Shown here piece by piece: positions 25,311-31,332 of a stretch of 64,000 bases of DNA. Within the stretch, counting starts at the first letter, position 1. Every line of letters begins with the position of its first letter. Both the position numbers and the translations under genes were made by a program. Origin of the DNA: Bowmanella yangjiangensis (GTDB taxonomy: Bacteria > Pseudomonadota > Gammaproteobacteria > Enterobacterales > Alteromonadaceae); assembly GCF_017255015.1 (NCBI RefSeq), contig NZ_JAFKCS010000016.1:20092-84091 (forward strand), written 5' to 3'. The notes beneath the pieces are model-generated. The model saw only the letters and a list, made by a program, of their open reading frames with translations. It was not told where the DNA came from and made no database searches.

Positions 25311-25356
25311 AATTTAATAAGAATAACAGTTGGTTGAATCCTCACTGGAGGCAGTT

Positions 25357-25740
25357 TTGGATAAAAACATGAAAATTCTTGTTGTCGACGATTTCTCGAC
25401 GATGAGACGTATCATCAAGAACTTACTGAAAGACCTGGGCTTTACCAATGTTCAGGAAGCTGATGACGGCAGTACCGCTTTGCCCATGCTGCAACAGGGG
25501 GATTTTGATTTTGTCATTACGGACTGGAACATGCCGGGAATGCAGGGTATCGACCTGCTTCGCGCTATCCGTGCCGATGACAACCTCAAACATACTCCCG
25601 TGCTGATGGTCACGGCGGAAGCGAAGAAAGAGCAGATCGTAGCGGCGGCCCAAGCCGGTGTTAATGGCTATGTTGTGAAGCCCTTCACCGCAGCCACGCT
25701 AAAAGAGAAACTCGAAAAGATATTTGAGCGCCTTGGGTAG
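25357..25740 (+). CDS. cheY: chemotaxis response regulator CheY
   Basis: The 127-residue receiver domain has the acidic pair in [10 protein letters not shown], the phosphoacceptor Asp in ITDWNMPG, Thr in [11 protein letters not shown] and Lys in YVVKPF. CheY-P binds the flagellar switch and changes rotation. TTG at 25357 is preceded by GGAGG at 5-nt spacing and gives [12 protein letters not shown], the N-terminus usual in related genera; ATG at 25369 is the alternative. Confidence 0.95.
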
Positions 25741-25775: not shown

Positions 25776-26522
25776 ATGACGATTACCGAGCAAGCTCCTG
25801 TTTCGCTTGAGGATGCCCGCCAGTTGGTGGCATTGCTTGAGCAGGGAGATAATCAGGGAGCGGCACAGTTATTGGAGTCCATCACTATGGCGGATTCCAT
25901 GGAGCTGTTTGCGGAGGTGGGTAAGCTGACCCGCCAACTGCACGATTCCCTGAATAACTTTCAATTAGATGCGCGTATCGCGGATTTGGCGCAGGAAGAT
26001 ATTCCTGACGCACAGAGTCGCCTCAATTACGTCATTGAAACCACCGAAGATGCTGCCAACCGCACTATGGATGCGGTTGAGACCAGTATGCCAATTGCAG
26101 AACGCTTGAATGCCCAAATAAACGGTATCTTGCCCGAATGGAAGAAACTCATGACCCGGCAGCTACAGTTGGGCGAGTTTAAAGCTCTCTGCCATAATAT
26201 GGACAAGTTCCTTGATCAGGCCAGCGGCGATTCTGCCAAACTCAATGAGCTACTGACCGAAGTGCTGATGGCACAAGGGTATCAAGACCTCACCGGCCAA
26301 GTTATTCGCAAAGTTATTGATCTAGTTAAAGAAGTAGAAGACAGCTTAGTGCATATGCTAACGGTGTTTGGCGAGCCTGAGATCGACGAAGATGCCAAGC
26401 AAGCTAAAAAAGAGGCCAGCAAGGAAATGGCTGAAGGGCCAATCATTGATGCGGCTAGCCGGGATGATGTGGTAACTGGTCAGGATGACGTTGATGATCT
26501 ACTTTCAAGCTTAGGGTTTTAA
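25776..26522 (+). CDS. cheZ: CheY phosphatase CheZ
   Basis: The 248-residue, mostly helical protein has the catalytic region AQGYQDLTGQVIRKVIDLV, in which the Gln of YQDLTGQ acts on CheY-P. Its C-terminal CheY-binding peptide is DDVDDLLSSLGF. It removes phosphate from CheY to end the signal. It lies between cheY and cheA in the operon. Confidence 0.95.
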   Translation: MTITEQAPVSLEDARQLVALLEQGDNQGAAQLLESITMADSMELFAEVGKLTRQLHDSLNNFQLDARIADLAQEDIPDAQSRLNYVIETTEDAANRTMDAVETSMPIAERLNAQINGILPEWKKLMTRQLQLGEFKALCHNMDKFLDQASGDSAKLNELLTEVLMAQGYQDLTGQVIRKVIDLVKEVEDSLVHMLTVFGEPEIDEDAKQAKKEASKEMAEGPIIDAASRDDVVTGQDDVDDLLSSLGF

Positions 26523-26535
26523 GGGGAATTGATGC

Positions 26536-28737
26536 ATGGCCTTTGACGTTGATGAGGATATCCTGCAGGACTTCCTGGTTGAAGCGGGAGAAATTCTCGA
26601 ACTGCTGCAAGAGCAACTGGTTGATTTGGAAAATAATCCTGAAGATGCTGACTTGCTCAATGCTATTTTTCGTGGTTTCCATACCGTCAAAGGTGGTGCC
26701 GGGTTTCTGTCACTGACAGAACTGGTTGACGCCTGCCATGGTGCCGAGAACGTGTTCGATGTGCTGCGCACCGGCAAGCGTCAGGTAACTGCAGAATTGA
26801 TGGATGTCATCCTGCAAGCGTTAGACAGCATCAATGAAATGTTCGCTAACGTCAAAGCCCGTGAGCCGCTGGAACCGGCGGCCCCCGAGGTACTTGAAGC
26901 CCTGCATCGTTTAAGTAAGCCTGAATCGGAAGATGAGGTGGCCAGTACTCCTGTCGAGCCCGAACCAGAACCTATTCCTGAACCCGAAATGAGTAGTGAA
27001 GCGTCAACTGGTGGCAGCATTGACGATATCACCGAAGATGAATTTGAAGCCTTGCTTGATGAACTTCATGGCCCCGGTGGTCCTTCAGCGGCTAATACAA
27101 CGGCACCTGCAATAGACTTGAATATGGGTGATGAAGATATCACCGACGACGAATTTGAAGCCCTTCTGGACCAGTTGCATGGTGAAGGCAAGTTTAACGC
27201 ACAAAAACAGGCTGCTTCATCTGCTCCTGCCACACCTGTTTCGGGCCCAGTAGACGGCGACGATATTACTGATGATGAATTTGAAGCTTTGTTGGATCAG
27301 TTGCATGGTTCCGGCAAAGGGCCTGGGGCAGAAAAGGCCGGTGCCAAACCTGCCGCTAAAGTTGAAACTGCTAAGCCTAAAAGCGATGCCAAAGGTGTCA
27401 GTGCGCCGGTGGCTAAAGCCGAGCCAGCTAAACCTGTGAGCAAGCCGGTTGCCAAACCCGCTGAAGACGAAGATGAGGATAAGGCTGCTAGTACTGCTTT
27501 ACGAGGCGCAGATAAGAAAGCTGCTGCCGCGCCACCGCCTGCGGAAACCACAGTTCGGGTGGATACCAAACGTCTGGACCAGATAATGAATATGGTCGGT
27601 GAATTGGTATTAGTACGTAACCGTTTGTTAAGCCTTGGGGTTAACCTGAATAATGAAGACATGTCCAAGGCTATTGCCAACCTGGATGTGGTAACGGGGG
27701 ATTTGCAAGGTGCGGTGATGAAAACCCGCATGCAGCCCATCAAGAAAGTCTTTGGTCGATTCCCACGGGTGGTTAGAGATTTAGCTCGCAGTCTGAAAAA
27801 GGAAATTAATCTTAATCTGGTTGGGGAAGAGACAGACCTGGATAAAAACCTGGTCGAGGCTTTGGCTGACCCGTTGGTGCACTTGGTTAGAAACTCTGTT
27901 GATCACGGTATTGAGATGCCCGATGAACGGGAAGCATCCGGCAAAAAACGCACAGGTACAGTGACCTTGTCTGCTTCTCAGGAAGGCGATCATATTCTGC
28001 TTACCATTGAAGATGACGGTAAGGGCATGGATCCCGAAAAACTTAAAGATATCGCGATTAAACGTGGCGTGTTGGATGTGGATGCGGCCGCCCGTATGTC
28101 GGATGTAGAAGCCTTCAATCTGATTTTTGCCCCCGGTTTCTCTACAAAAACAGAAATTTCGGATATTTCCGGCCGTGGCGTGGGTATGGATGTGGTGAAA
28201 ACCAAGATCAACCAGCTAAACGGTACTGTGCATATCCATTCCGAAAAAGGTGTGGGAACACGACTGGAGATTAAGGTACCGCTGACCTTGGCGATATTGC
28301 CAACTCTGATGGTTATTGTCGGTGAGCAAACCTTTGCGTTGCCGTTGGCGGCAGTGAGCGAAATTATTAATGTTGATATGAGCAAGACCAACACAGTAGA
28401 CGGTCAGCTCACCATGATTGTTCGTTCAAAAGCGATACCGCTGTTCTATCTGAAGGAATGGTTGCATCGTAGTAAAGGAAAAGTACAGATTGAACGCAGC
28501 AAAGGTCATGTTGTGGTGGTGCAGATTGGCACCCAACAAGTAGGTTTTGTCGTAGATGCCCTGATTGGTCAGGAAGAAGTGGTAATTAAACCCTTGGATG
28601 CCTTATTGCAAGGTACGCCCGGTATGGCAGGGGCGACTATTACCAGTGACGGCGGTATCGCATTGATTCTGGACATTCCAAGCCTACTAAAGCGTTATGC
28701 GAAAAAGGCCTTAAAGACAAAAAAAGCAATTAACTGA
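26536..28737 (+). CDS. cheA: chemotaxis histidine kinase CheA without a recognisable P2 domain
   Basis: The 733-residue protein has P1 Hpt with phosphorylated His49 ([13 protein letters not shown]) and P3 from about residue 337 ([18 protein letters not shown]). P4 has its ATP-site motifs ([29 protein letters not shown]), and a P5 CheW-like domain closes the protein. The 105-335 linker holds three copies of an acidic motif, [20 protein letters not shown], at residues 163-179, 200-216 and 242-258, joined by Ala/Pro/Lys-rich stretches; I see no globular P2. CheA passes phosphate to CheY and CheB. The stop overlaps the cheB start (TGATG). Confidence 0.95.
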
Positions 28738-29843
28738 TGCAATATAAGGTTCTGGTTGTCGACGATTCGACATTCTTTCGTAGACGGGTTTCTGATTTCC
28801 TCAACCAGGATCCGGGCCTGACGGTAGTGGGAGAGGCCAAGAACGGCCAGGAAGCCATCGATATGGCCGCTAAATTGCGGCCTGATGTAATCACCATGGA
28901 TGTCGAGATGCCGATCATGGACGGTATTAGTGCGGTGAAGCGCATTATGGCCAGTAATCCGACGCCGATTCTGATGTTTTCCTCTCTAACCAAAGATGGT
29001 GCTCAAGCGACATTAGATGCATTGGATGCCGGTGCATTAGATTTTCTGCCGAAGAAGTTCGAGGATATTGCTAAGGAACGGCAAGAAGCCATTAGTTTGC
29101 TTCAGCAGCGGGTTAAAGCCTTAGCCAGACGCCGGGCATTTTCCCGACCCAGTTTGCTTAGGACAACACCCAGCCCGGTTGCCAGCTTGCGAGACAGTAG
29201 GGCTGCAGAGACAAAGCCAACGGTTAGCGTTGAATCTGTCCGTCCACCAAAAGCCAGCGGCAAACGCTATTCCGCCTTGGCTATTGGCGCGTCCACCGGC
29301 GGCCCTGTGGCACTGCAAACTATTCTAACCAAGTTGCCAGCGAACTTTCCTTATCCTATTTTCCTGGTGCAGCATATGCCGGGCACCTTTACCACGGCCT
29401 TTGCCGGGCGGATGAATAATCTTTGTCAGATTAAGGTTAAGGAAGCTGAAAACGGCGATCTGATTGAACCCGGCTGTGCTTATCTGGCCCCCGGGGGGAA
29501 GCAGATGTTGGTCGACGGCACCAGCCGCTCATGTCGAATTCGTATTGTGGATGACCCGGGTCTGGACAACATTACCTATAAGCCCAGTGTCGATTTAAGC
29601 TTTGCCTCACTGGGTCGGGTTTATGGCGGCGATCTATTAGCTGTTGTTTTGACTGGTATGGGTGCAGACGGTCGTGAAGGCTGTCGGTCTCTTAAGCAAC
29701 GTGGCGCGACTATCTGGGCGCAAGACGAAAAGTCTTGTGTGGTTTACGGAATGCCTCAGGCCGTGACGGCTGCTGGACTGTCTTCGGCCAGTCTGGCTTT
29801 AGGTGATGTTGCTTCGCATATTTTGGCCGAGATGCCTGCCTGA
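28737..29843 (+). CDS. cheB: chemotaxis protein-glutamate methylesterase CheB
   Basis: The 368-residue protein has an N-terminal receiver ([11 protein letters not shown], phosphoacceptor Asp in [12 protein letters not shown]) and a C-terminal methylesterase domain with the triad Ser in GASTGG, His in QHMPGTFT and Asp in GMGADGREG. It removes methyl groups from chemoreceptors. Its stop codon is the loop of a short hairpin at 29834-29850. Confidence 0.96.
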
Positions 29844-29878: not shown

Positions 29879-30655
29879 GTGATTGTCTGGACAGTGGCGA
29901 ACCAAAAAGGTGGGGTAGGTAAAACCACGACGACAGTGACATTAGGTTCCTTATTGGCCCTAAAGGGCAAAAAGGTATTGCTGGTCGATACCGATCCCCA
30001 TGCTTCGCTTAGCTATTACTTCGGTGTGGATTCCGAAGAACTCTCCTCGAGTTTGTATGACGTGTTTTTGGCGCATAAGAGCCTGACTGCCGACAGAGTG
30101 TTGGACAGTTTGTGCCCAACCAAGTTTGACTCCTTGTTTATTCTGCCCGCCACTATGGCTCTGGCAACGCTGGATCGCAGTATGGGCCATCAGGGCGGAA
30201 TGGGGCTGATAATTAAAAAGGCCTTGGAACTGGTAGAGGACGAGTTTGACTTTGCAATTATGGATTGCCCCCCGGTACTGGGTGTATTGATGGTCAATGC
30301 ACTGGCGGCCTGTGAGCGAATTTTGATTCCGGTGCAGACCGAGTTTTTGGCCCTCAAGGGCCTAGAGCGCATGATGCATACCCTGGAGATTATGAAAAAG
30401 TCCCAGCCGCGTGATTACACTTACACTATTGTTCCCACCATGTACGACAAACGCACTAACGCGGCACTAGAAGCCTATAAGAAATTGCGTGCGACCTACG
30501 GGGATTTGGTTTGGAATGGTGTGGTACCTGTAGACACGCGTTTTCGGGATGCCAGTCAGGCACAAAGCCCGCTACCTGTTTTTCACCCTCGTAGCCGGGG
30601 GGTCTATGCTTATAACAGCTTACTGAATTTCCTTTTGAGTCAGGAGCCGAATTAA
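29879..30655 (+). CDS. parC: ParA-like ATPase ParC, polar localisation of chemotaxis clusters
   Basis: The 258-residue protein has a deviant Walker A ANQKGGVGKTTTTVTLG at the N-terminus, DTDPHASLSYYFG and MDCPPVLGVLMVNAL. ParA homologues inside che operons of Vibrio and relatives (ParC; not topoisomerase IV) move chemotaxis arrays to the pole and divide them between daughter cells. GTG at 29879 follows AAGGGCTGAG. The stop overlaps the parP start, and the operon position fits the role. Confidence 0.88.
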   Translation: MIVWTVANQKGGVGKTTTTVTLGSLLALKGKKVLLVDTDPHASLSYYFGVDSEELSSSLYDVFLAHKSLTADRVLDSLCPTKFDSLFILPATMALATLDRSMGHQGGMGLIIKKALELVEDEFDFAIMDCPPVLGVLMVNALAACERILIPVQTEFLALKGLERMMHTLEIMKKSQPRDYTYTIVPTMYDKRTNAALEAYKKLRATYGDLVWNGVVPVDTRFRDASQAQSPLPVFHPRSRGVYAYNSLLNFLLSQEPN

Positions 30656-31332
30656 TGAGCAAGGGCCAGTTCGCCAATGAAAAGGTGATGGAGGATTACC
30701 TGTCAGCTCTGCTTACCGAAGAGGTAGTGATTGAACAAGCGCAGCGCCAAACTGTGGCTAAGTTGCTTGAAGAGGCTCAGCCCTTTGTTCAAGAACCCGA
30801 GATAGTAACAGAGGTGCAAGCCCCGCAGCTTGCTGAGCCTTTTGAAGCCAGGCCACAGGAGCAAGAGACACCTGAATATCGCCAGGGCCAGTTTCAGGCG
30901 CTGTTATTTGATGTGGCGGGTTTAACCCTGGCAGTTCCTTTGACTGAGCTGGGTGGGATCCACCAGTTTGAAAAGGCCTCACCCTTAATCGGTAAGCCGG
31001 ATTGGTTTAAAGGTGTTATGCTGCACCGTGATGAAAAGCTCAAGGTTGTGGATACCGCACGTTGGGTGATGCCAGAAAAATACTCAGAAACACTGGCAGA
31101 AGCCTTAAATTATCAATATCTTATTATGTTAGGAACCAGTGGTTGGGGGCTTTGCTGCGAATCATTGGTAGATACGGTCAGCTTGCATCAGGATGATGTG
31201 AAATGGCGCGAGAATCAGGGCAAGCGTCCCTGGTTAGCTGGGCTGGTCAAGGAGAAAATGTGTGCCCTGATCGATGTTGGCGCATTGGTCGCACTGTTTG
31301 AACAGGGGTTGGGCAGTAAAGATGCAGATTAA
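30655..31332 (+). CDS. parP: ParP-like CheW-domain protein linking ParC to the chemotaxis array
   Basis: The 225-residue protein has a variable acidic N-terminal region (about 1-75) and a C-terminal CheW-like domain (QFQALLFDVAGLTLAVPLTELGGI...FKGVMLHRDEKLKVVDTARW). This matches ParP, which binds CheA and ParC and stabilises polar arrays. It overlaps the parC stop by one base. An alternative name is simply CheW-domain protein. Confidence 0.85.
   Translation: MSKGQFANEKVMEDYLSALLTEEVVIEQAQRQTVAKLLEEAQPFVQEPEIVTEVQAPQLAEPFEARPQEQETPEYRQGQFQALLFDVAGLTLAVPLTELGGIHQFEKASPLIGKPDWFKGVMLHRDEKLKVVDTARWVMPEKYSETLAEALNYQYLIMLGTSGWGLCCESLVDTVSLHQDDVKWRENQGKRPWLAGLVKEKMCALIDVGALVALFEQGLGSKDAD

Follow-up and report, generated by a model that had tools for sequence, protein, structure and literature searches.

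The CheA chemotaxis kinase encoded in the 64-kb stretch of DNA analysed here (hereafter the window) lacks a detectable P2 domain and carries, in the linker between P1 and P3, three copies of an acidic 17-residue motif. The motif recurs in gammaproteobacterial CheAs of the same type and resembles the N-terminal peptide of FliM, and these sequence comparisons leave it evenly balanced whether the copies are tandem FliM-like docking peptides for CheY/CheB in place of P2.

A CheA of probable F6 type with a repeated acidic motif

The window belongs to an Alteromonadaceae genome near Bowmanella, its closest named match being Bowmanella pacifica (88% in the best tblastn segment). Genes around cheA lie in the order cheY, cheZ, cheA, cheB, parC-like ATPase, parP-like CheW-domain protein, cheW and DUF2802 protein. 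The features that enter the argument are as follows.

25330..25740, + strand, cheY, encoding the proposed partner; start codon as in the list of open reading frames
25776..26522, + strand, cheZ; C-terminal tail of the product ...DDVDDLLSSLGF
26536..28737, + strand, cheA, 733 aa, probably F6-type, P1-linker-P3-P4-P5 (open reading frame; Pfam Hpt, H-kinase_dim, HATPase_c and CheW)
26557..26832, + strand, P1 (Hpt) domain of CheA, residues 8-99 (PF01627, E=1.5e-17)
26911..27546, + strand, P1-P3 linker, residues 126-337; mostly disordered in the model, P2 not detected
27022..27072, + strand, motif copy 1, residues 163-179; helix predicted at 167-177
27133..27183, + strand, motif copy 2, residues 200-216; helix predicted at 204-214
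27259..27309, + strand, motif copy 3, residues 242-258; helix predicted at 246-256
27547..28695, + strand, P3-P4-P5 core, residues 338-720 (PF02895, PF02518, PF01584)
28737..29843, + strand, cheB, encoding a second possible receiver partner
29879..30655, + strand, parC-like gene for a ParA-family ATPase
30655..31332, + strand, gene for a parP-like protein, a rival partner, with a CheW-like domain; W193 invariant in the alignment

Pfam delimits P3 at residues 338-397, and P3-P5 is 73% identical to the chemotaxis CheA of P. aeruginosa, whose chemotaxis pathway is named F6 in the accessible text of PMC12410967. In the sample described below, the F6 label was assigned by P3-P5 identity without a class model, with class-sample loci at 48% or above and other CheAs at 39-46%. 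The genome of the window also holds an open frame of 165 aa with a match to the CheC family (G000:C179:23415-23519, locus L222), although the operon has CheZ.

As the preliminary description had claimed, the acidic 17-residue motif occurs three times in the linker, with starts at residues 163, 200 and 242 and thus 37 and 42 residues apart. Pairwise identities among the copies are 14/17, 15/17 and 16/17, and the consensus (14 protein letters not shown here) ends in x-L-H-G. A six-frame scan of the 64-kb window with a FliM/CheA-type pattern returned no place beyond these three copies. An AlphaFold model of CheA, built from a 43-sequence alignment (mean pLDDT 65.5, pTM 0.38), placed a short helix on each copy with disorder around it: pLDDT was below 50 across nearly all of residues 136-344, bar the helices at 167-177, 204-214 and 246-256, which had 10-residue block means of about 49-67. 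When the model was submitted to Foldseek, the best 50 among the matches listed were CheA and other histidine kinase structures.

Absence of a detectable P2 domain

The linker had also been described as holding no P2 fold, and Pfam, linker profile comparison and the AlphaFold model were all without one. For the window's CheA, Pfam yielded neither a P2 nor a CheY-binding domain at E values up to 1; the same search recovered P2 of E. coli CheA as a positive control (PF09078, E=8.2e-17), and no P2 fold was seen in the AlphaFold model. Pfam also gave no P2 match in the four-copy CheA of P. aeruginosa, and no P2/CheY-binding family was among the 25 of 32 Pfam families listed for 101 class-sample linkers. 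The same Pfam models also failed on every one of the 28 P2-type linkers from other CheA classes that served as controls, so a Pfam miss was rejected as uninformative for a class-wide proof of absence. Because these models are too insensitive on linkers, profile comparison was used for the class-wide question. In hhalign, the F6 linker profile matched the E. coli P2 region with a probability of 0.2%, versus 84.5% for a control profile of 28 linkers from other-class CheAs, the aligned part of which includes the start of P3.

These P2-less F6 linkers fit a published survey that, in its accessible part, reports P2 missing from more than half of CheA homologues (PMC10782961). Against a P2-less reading count two papers whose available portions speak of P2 for Pseudomonas putida CheA (PMC11978298) and Vibrio cholerae CheA (PMC7534058).

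Conservation and distribution of the motif

Conservation of the motifs equals that of the folded domains, while the spacers drift. In an alignment of 43 CheAs, comprising the window's own and 42 of the 80 named relatives fetched, column identity was 0.88-0.90 in the motifs, 0.84 in P1 and 0.89 in P3-P5, as against 0.32-0.38 in the spacers, and every invariant linker column fell inside or directly beside a motif. A wider alignment (n=101) added P291 and P308, nearly invariant residues in the proline-rich end of the linker. Such conservation bears on whether the motifs could be acidic solubility tags or spacers with no specific partner, an explanation in keeping with their acidic composition and disordered surroundings. 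Conservation at the level of single residues argues against it: among 491 copies in 182 linkers, F is kept in >99%, E in 99%, the second L in 98% and D in 97%, followed by I (93%), the first L (92%), G (90%) and H (85%). So does the behaviour of shuffled linkers, 0/910 of which reach 6 bits with the motif profile (best 5.2). This explanation is disfavoured, and we consider it highly improbable.

A survey of copy number across relatives, suggested in the preliminary description, found the motif at 6 bits or more in 182/182 F6-type linkers, two of them weak with best copies below 15 bits (L199 at 14.3 and L219, the weakest, at 8.7). Three copies were found, at the same threshold of at least 6 bits, in 81/81 CheAs of a first set (L001-L081), which consists of the window's own genome and 80 named relatives (Alteromonadales, one labelled merely gammaproteobacterium). 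The motif profile was seeded from L002-L081, so that only the class sample is independent. That sample derives from 276 evenly sampled Gammaproteobacteria genomes of GTDB, 109 loci of which had a close CheA; eight of the 109 were dropped for want of a P1 match, leaving 101 readable linkers, and an F6-like fragment (G048) was omitted. One, two, three and four copies (6 bits or more) occurred in 8, 44, 44 and 5 of these 101 linkers, respectively. The window's own CheA entered twice among the 182 linkers, as L001 and L112. A stricter regular expression undercounts, giving three, two and one copies in 70, 8 and 4 of 82 entries and none in several class-sample linkers; the divergent copies it missed were recovered by the motif profile.

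Confinement of the motif to the window's genus was considered and rejected, since it is widespread in gammaproteobacterial CheAs. Outside the sample, one CheA of P. aeruginosa has four copies, one of Aeromonas caviae three and a plasmid-borne CheA of Photobacterium toruni one. Two Shewanella CheAs among those read have three each. The P. toruni plasmid (L254, 3080-7652) carries cheY-cheZ-cheA-cheW and a further chemotaxis gene, with the CheA motif kept, and cheB, parC and parP are not among the annotations of the stretch seen. The A. caviae replicon (NZ_AP026896.1, L252; 4.9 Mb) is labelled a plasmid; it carries the flagellar/chemotaxis operon and has the appearance of a chromosome. Two F6-type che loci of the class sample (L209 and L212, from genomes G020 and G152) have a single copy of the motif in CheA, and BLAST finds no cheZ, parC or parP nearby. 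For positions 9151-10921 of L253, potential orthologues in Pseudomonas are stated in the accessible text of PMC12918733.

CheAs of other kinds do not share the motif: 0/30 reach even 4 bits with the motif profile. Limitation to one kind of CheA, together with domain-like conservation, would suit motifs that bind within the array, to P4, P5, CheW or a neighbouring CheA, and adjust packing or the activity of the kinase. Nothing specific speaks for such contacts, however, and a single-chain model with a pTM of 0.38 cannot reliably show them; we regard this explanation as quite unlikely.

Resemblance to FliM and CheZ peptides

The motif had been likened in the preliminary description to the C-terminal CheY-binding tail of CheZ. 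Part of this holds, in that the E. coli CheZ tail scored above the 99th percentile of shuffles in 44/101 linkers (and in 11/28 linkers from the other classes of CheA). With the CheZ tail of the organism itself the count was 0/101, and on that ground this tail was rejected as a model for the motif; the E. coli tail may still serve as one. FliM matches better: the organism's own FliM peptide exceeded the same percentile in 86/101 linkers, versus 4/28 of other classes, and the E. coli FliM peptide in 22/101 versus 0/28.

We scored FliM likeness as ungapped BLOSUM62 over about 13 residues, with thresholds that were set after the scores were known. On this scale a FliM 13-mer query reached at least 30 in 145/182 linkers, 0/910 shuffles, 30/177 CheZ tails and 2/4830 other open reading frames, and at least 28 in 161/182, 3/910, 51/177 and 15/4830, respectively. 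In the reverse direction, the CheA core reached at least 28 in 29/31 FliM proteins (all 30 FliM-family loci fetched plus L220) versus 18/5007 other open reading frames. Open rankings pointed the same way in both directions: outside CheA, the CheA core matched FliM N-termini best. When the FliM peptide was the query, the best matches outside the FliM label were two unlabelled FliM proteins (L237 and L220), followed by CheA motifs. HMMER profiles of the motif and of FliM did not detect each other among the matches listed. With an 11-residue FliM query, CheZ tails and CheA linkers scored about equally (medians 28 and 27), at least 28 being reached in 92/177 and 61/182, respectively.

Overall, the FliM N-terminal peptide appears the better comparison for the motif than the CheZ tail, and at the level of sequence the peptides of FliM and CheZ also resemble each other. 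The match to FliM is incomplete at two places. Position 9 is Phe in >99% of motif copies and Ile in FliM, and FliM has no counterpart, at the same distance, of the conserved LHG that closes the motif. Phe9 and the LHG end suggest that the motif may have a binding surface of its own.

Proposed docking of CheY or CheB

The accessible part of PMC9126983 identifies the EIDALL peptide of FliM as the CheY-P site of the motor, and that of PMC3774744 describes one CheY face, alpha4-beta5-alpha5, as common to CheZ and FliM. The window's CheY has 71% identity to its E. coli counterpart over 126 aa and shares with it 33/40 residues from alpha4 to the C-terminus (counted by eye on the alignment); by this comparison the predicted FliM/CheZ-binding face is kept. 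That the motif binds CheY/CheB at all, which face it contacts and how phosphotransfer is affected are inferences. Each copy would most likely become helical on docking to the alpha4-beta5-alpha5 surface of CheY, perhaps also to that of the CheB receiver, and the copies would keep the response regulator beside P1. Several weak sites could thereby do the job of P2 instead of one folded domain, and a subset of copies may serve ParP as well.

FliM prefers phosphorylated CheY, and a true FliM mimic could for this reason hold the product rather than deliver the substrate. Sites with such a preference might alternatively retain CheY-P at the array and create a polar store of it. In P. aeruginosa, CheY-eYFP overlaps CheA-CFP at the pole according to the available text of PMC12410967, which implies that something in that array, CheA or another component, retains CheY.

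An earlier proposal that the repeats are docking sites for CheY or CheB thus stands in part: the missing P2 and a repeated short site are upheld by conservation, predicted structure and distribution, and the likeness to CheZ proved weaker. That proposal had also left ParP and the LID out of account, despite the parC-like and parP-like genes just downstream.

ParP as a possible partner

According to the accessible parts of PMC7534058 and PMC5706961, the LID of CheA lies between P2 and P3, occurs only in species with ParC and ParP and, in Vibrio, binds the CheW-like domain of ParP; binding of V. cholerae ParP to CheA requires its W305 (PMC5706961). The strongest rival reading is accordingly that the motifs form the core of such a LID: they would bind ParP through its AIF (CheW-like) domain and so tether arrays to the pole marked by ParC, with the copies giving avidity. 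Besides the published location and ParC/ParP restriction, the parC-like and parP-like genes just downstream of cheA-cheB are as expected, and in our assignment W305 of V. cholerae ParP probably corresponds to the invariant W193 here. Moreover, across the 43 aligned relatives no stretch of the linker other than the motifs is conserved, so that a conserved LID must overlap them; in ParP-bearing species the LID probably includes motif copies.

Copy number points in the same direction. Genomes bearing ParP averaged 2.52 copies (n=46) and those without detected ParP 1.80 (n=15; p=0.0016, uncorrected for kinship). This comparison covers 61 of the 101 linkers, the 40 omitted, including the window's own, being mostly short stored loci, and five genomes were scored as ParP-bearing from matches elsewhere in the genome. 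The higher copy number with ParP favours a ParP role for some copies. The N-terminus of the parP-like protein (30685-30723) itself has a conserved V-M-x-x-Y-L-x-x-L-L-x-E, loosely similar to the CheA motif; the ParC-binding part of ParP is its N-terminal part in the accessible text of PMC5706961.

On the other side, the motifs persist in six genomes without detectable ParC or ParP (G008, G020, G152, G172, G261 and G023). In none of the six did the ParC profile score better than about 180-207 bits, comparable to the 198 bits of the second-ranking ParA-family match in the genome of the window, and matches to the ParP profile stopped at 28 bits, where CheW proteins score. Copies are clear in G008, G020 and G152 and weak in G261 and G023, and in G172 three FliM-like halves are intact and the LHG end is missing, which strengthens the case for a role independent of ParP. 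L198 (G172) and L199 (G261) come from same-family genomes, and their CheA copies keep the FliM-like half without the LDxLHG end. Published as occurring only where ParC and ParP are encoded, the LID differs in this respect from the motif, and was not accepted as the whole explanation; the six genomes make ParP unlikely as the only partner. In addition, FliM-like sequence would be unexpected for a CheW-like partner. We hold it doubtful that the motifs are the core of a ParP-binding LID; the copies, or the two halves of the motif, may divide the labour between them.

Implications and comparison with known systems

P2-less CheAs and the LID are already known; no description of a tandem, widespread FliM-like motif within CheA was found in those parts of the open-access literature that the search reached. 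For the question of how P2-less CheAs catch CheY, a conserved, countable and easily mutated peptide offers a direct test in polar gammaproteobacteria. The motif is at the same time a sequence-level candidate for the ParP-binding LID. Taking the proposed docking of CheY/CheB further, we propose tentatively, and with less confidence than docking itself, that a major class of CheA, including that of P. aeruginosa, has given up P2 in favour of tandem mimics, one to four in number, of the peptide with which the motor binds CheY. If so, kinase and motor would be rivals for CheY, using one peptide code, and the number of copies would determine the amount of CheY held at the polar array.

Four known systems invite comparison. 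P2 of E. coli and T. maritima CheA shares with the F6 linker its location between P1 and P3 and the proposed job; it is folded there, in contrast to the F6 linker. The LID of polar CheAs occupies the same linker and comes with a similar operon containing parC and parP, yet it is restricted to ParC/ParP species, whereas the CheA motif also occurs without detectable ParC/ParP. Like the motif, the C-terminal CheY-binding tail of CheZ is acidic, contains LL and belongs to the same pathway, and in many genomes it is FliM-like; against the motif, the organism's own tail is not above chance (0/101) and that of E. coli is in 44/101. The EIDALL peptide of FliM/FliY is likewise short and acidic, follows the pattern [LI]-[ST]-[QDE]-[DE]-E-[hydrophobic]-[DE]-A-L-L and is carried by a partner of CheY; in the CheA copies a helix is predicted. 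Unlike that peptide, the CheA motif is internal to its protein and tandem, has Phe for Ile and an added D-x-L-H-G end, and its binding to CheY is putative.
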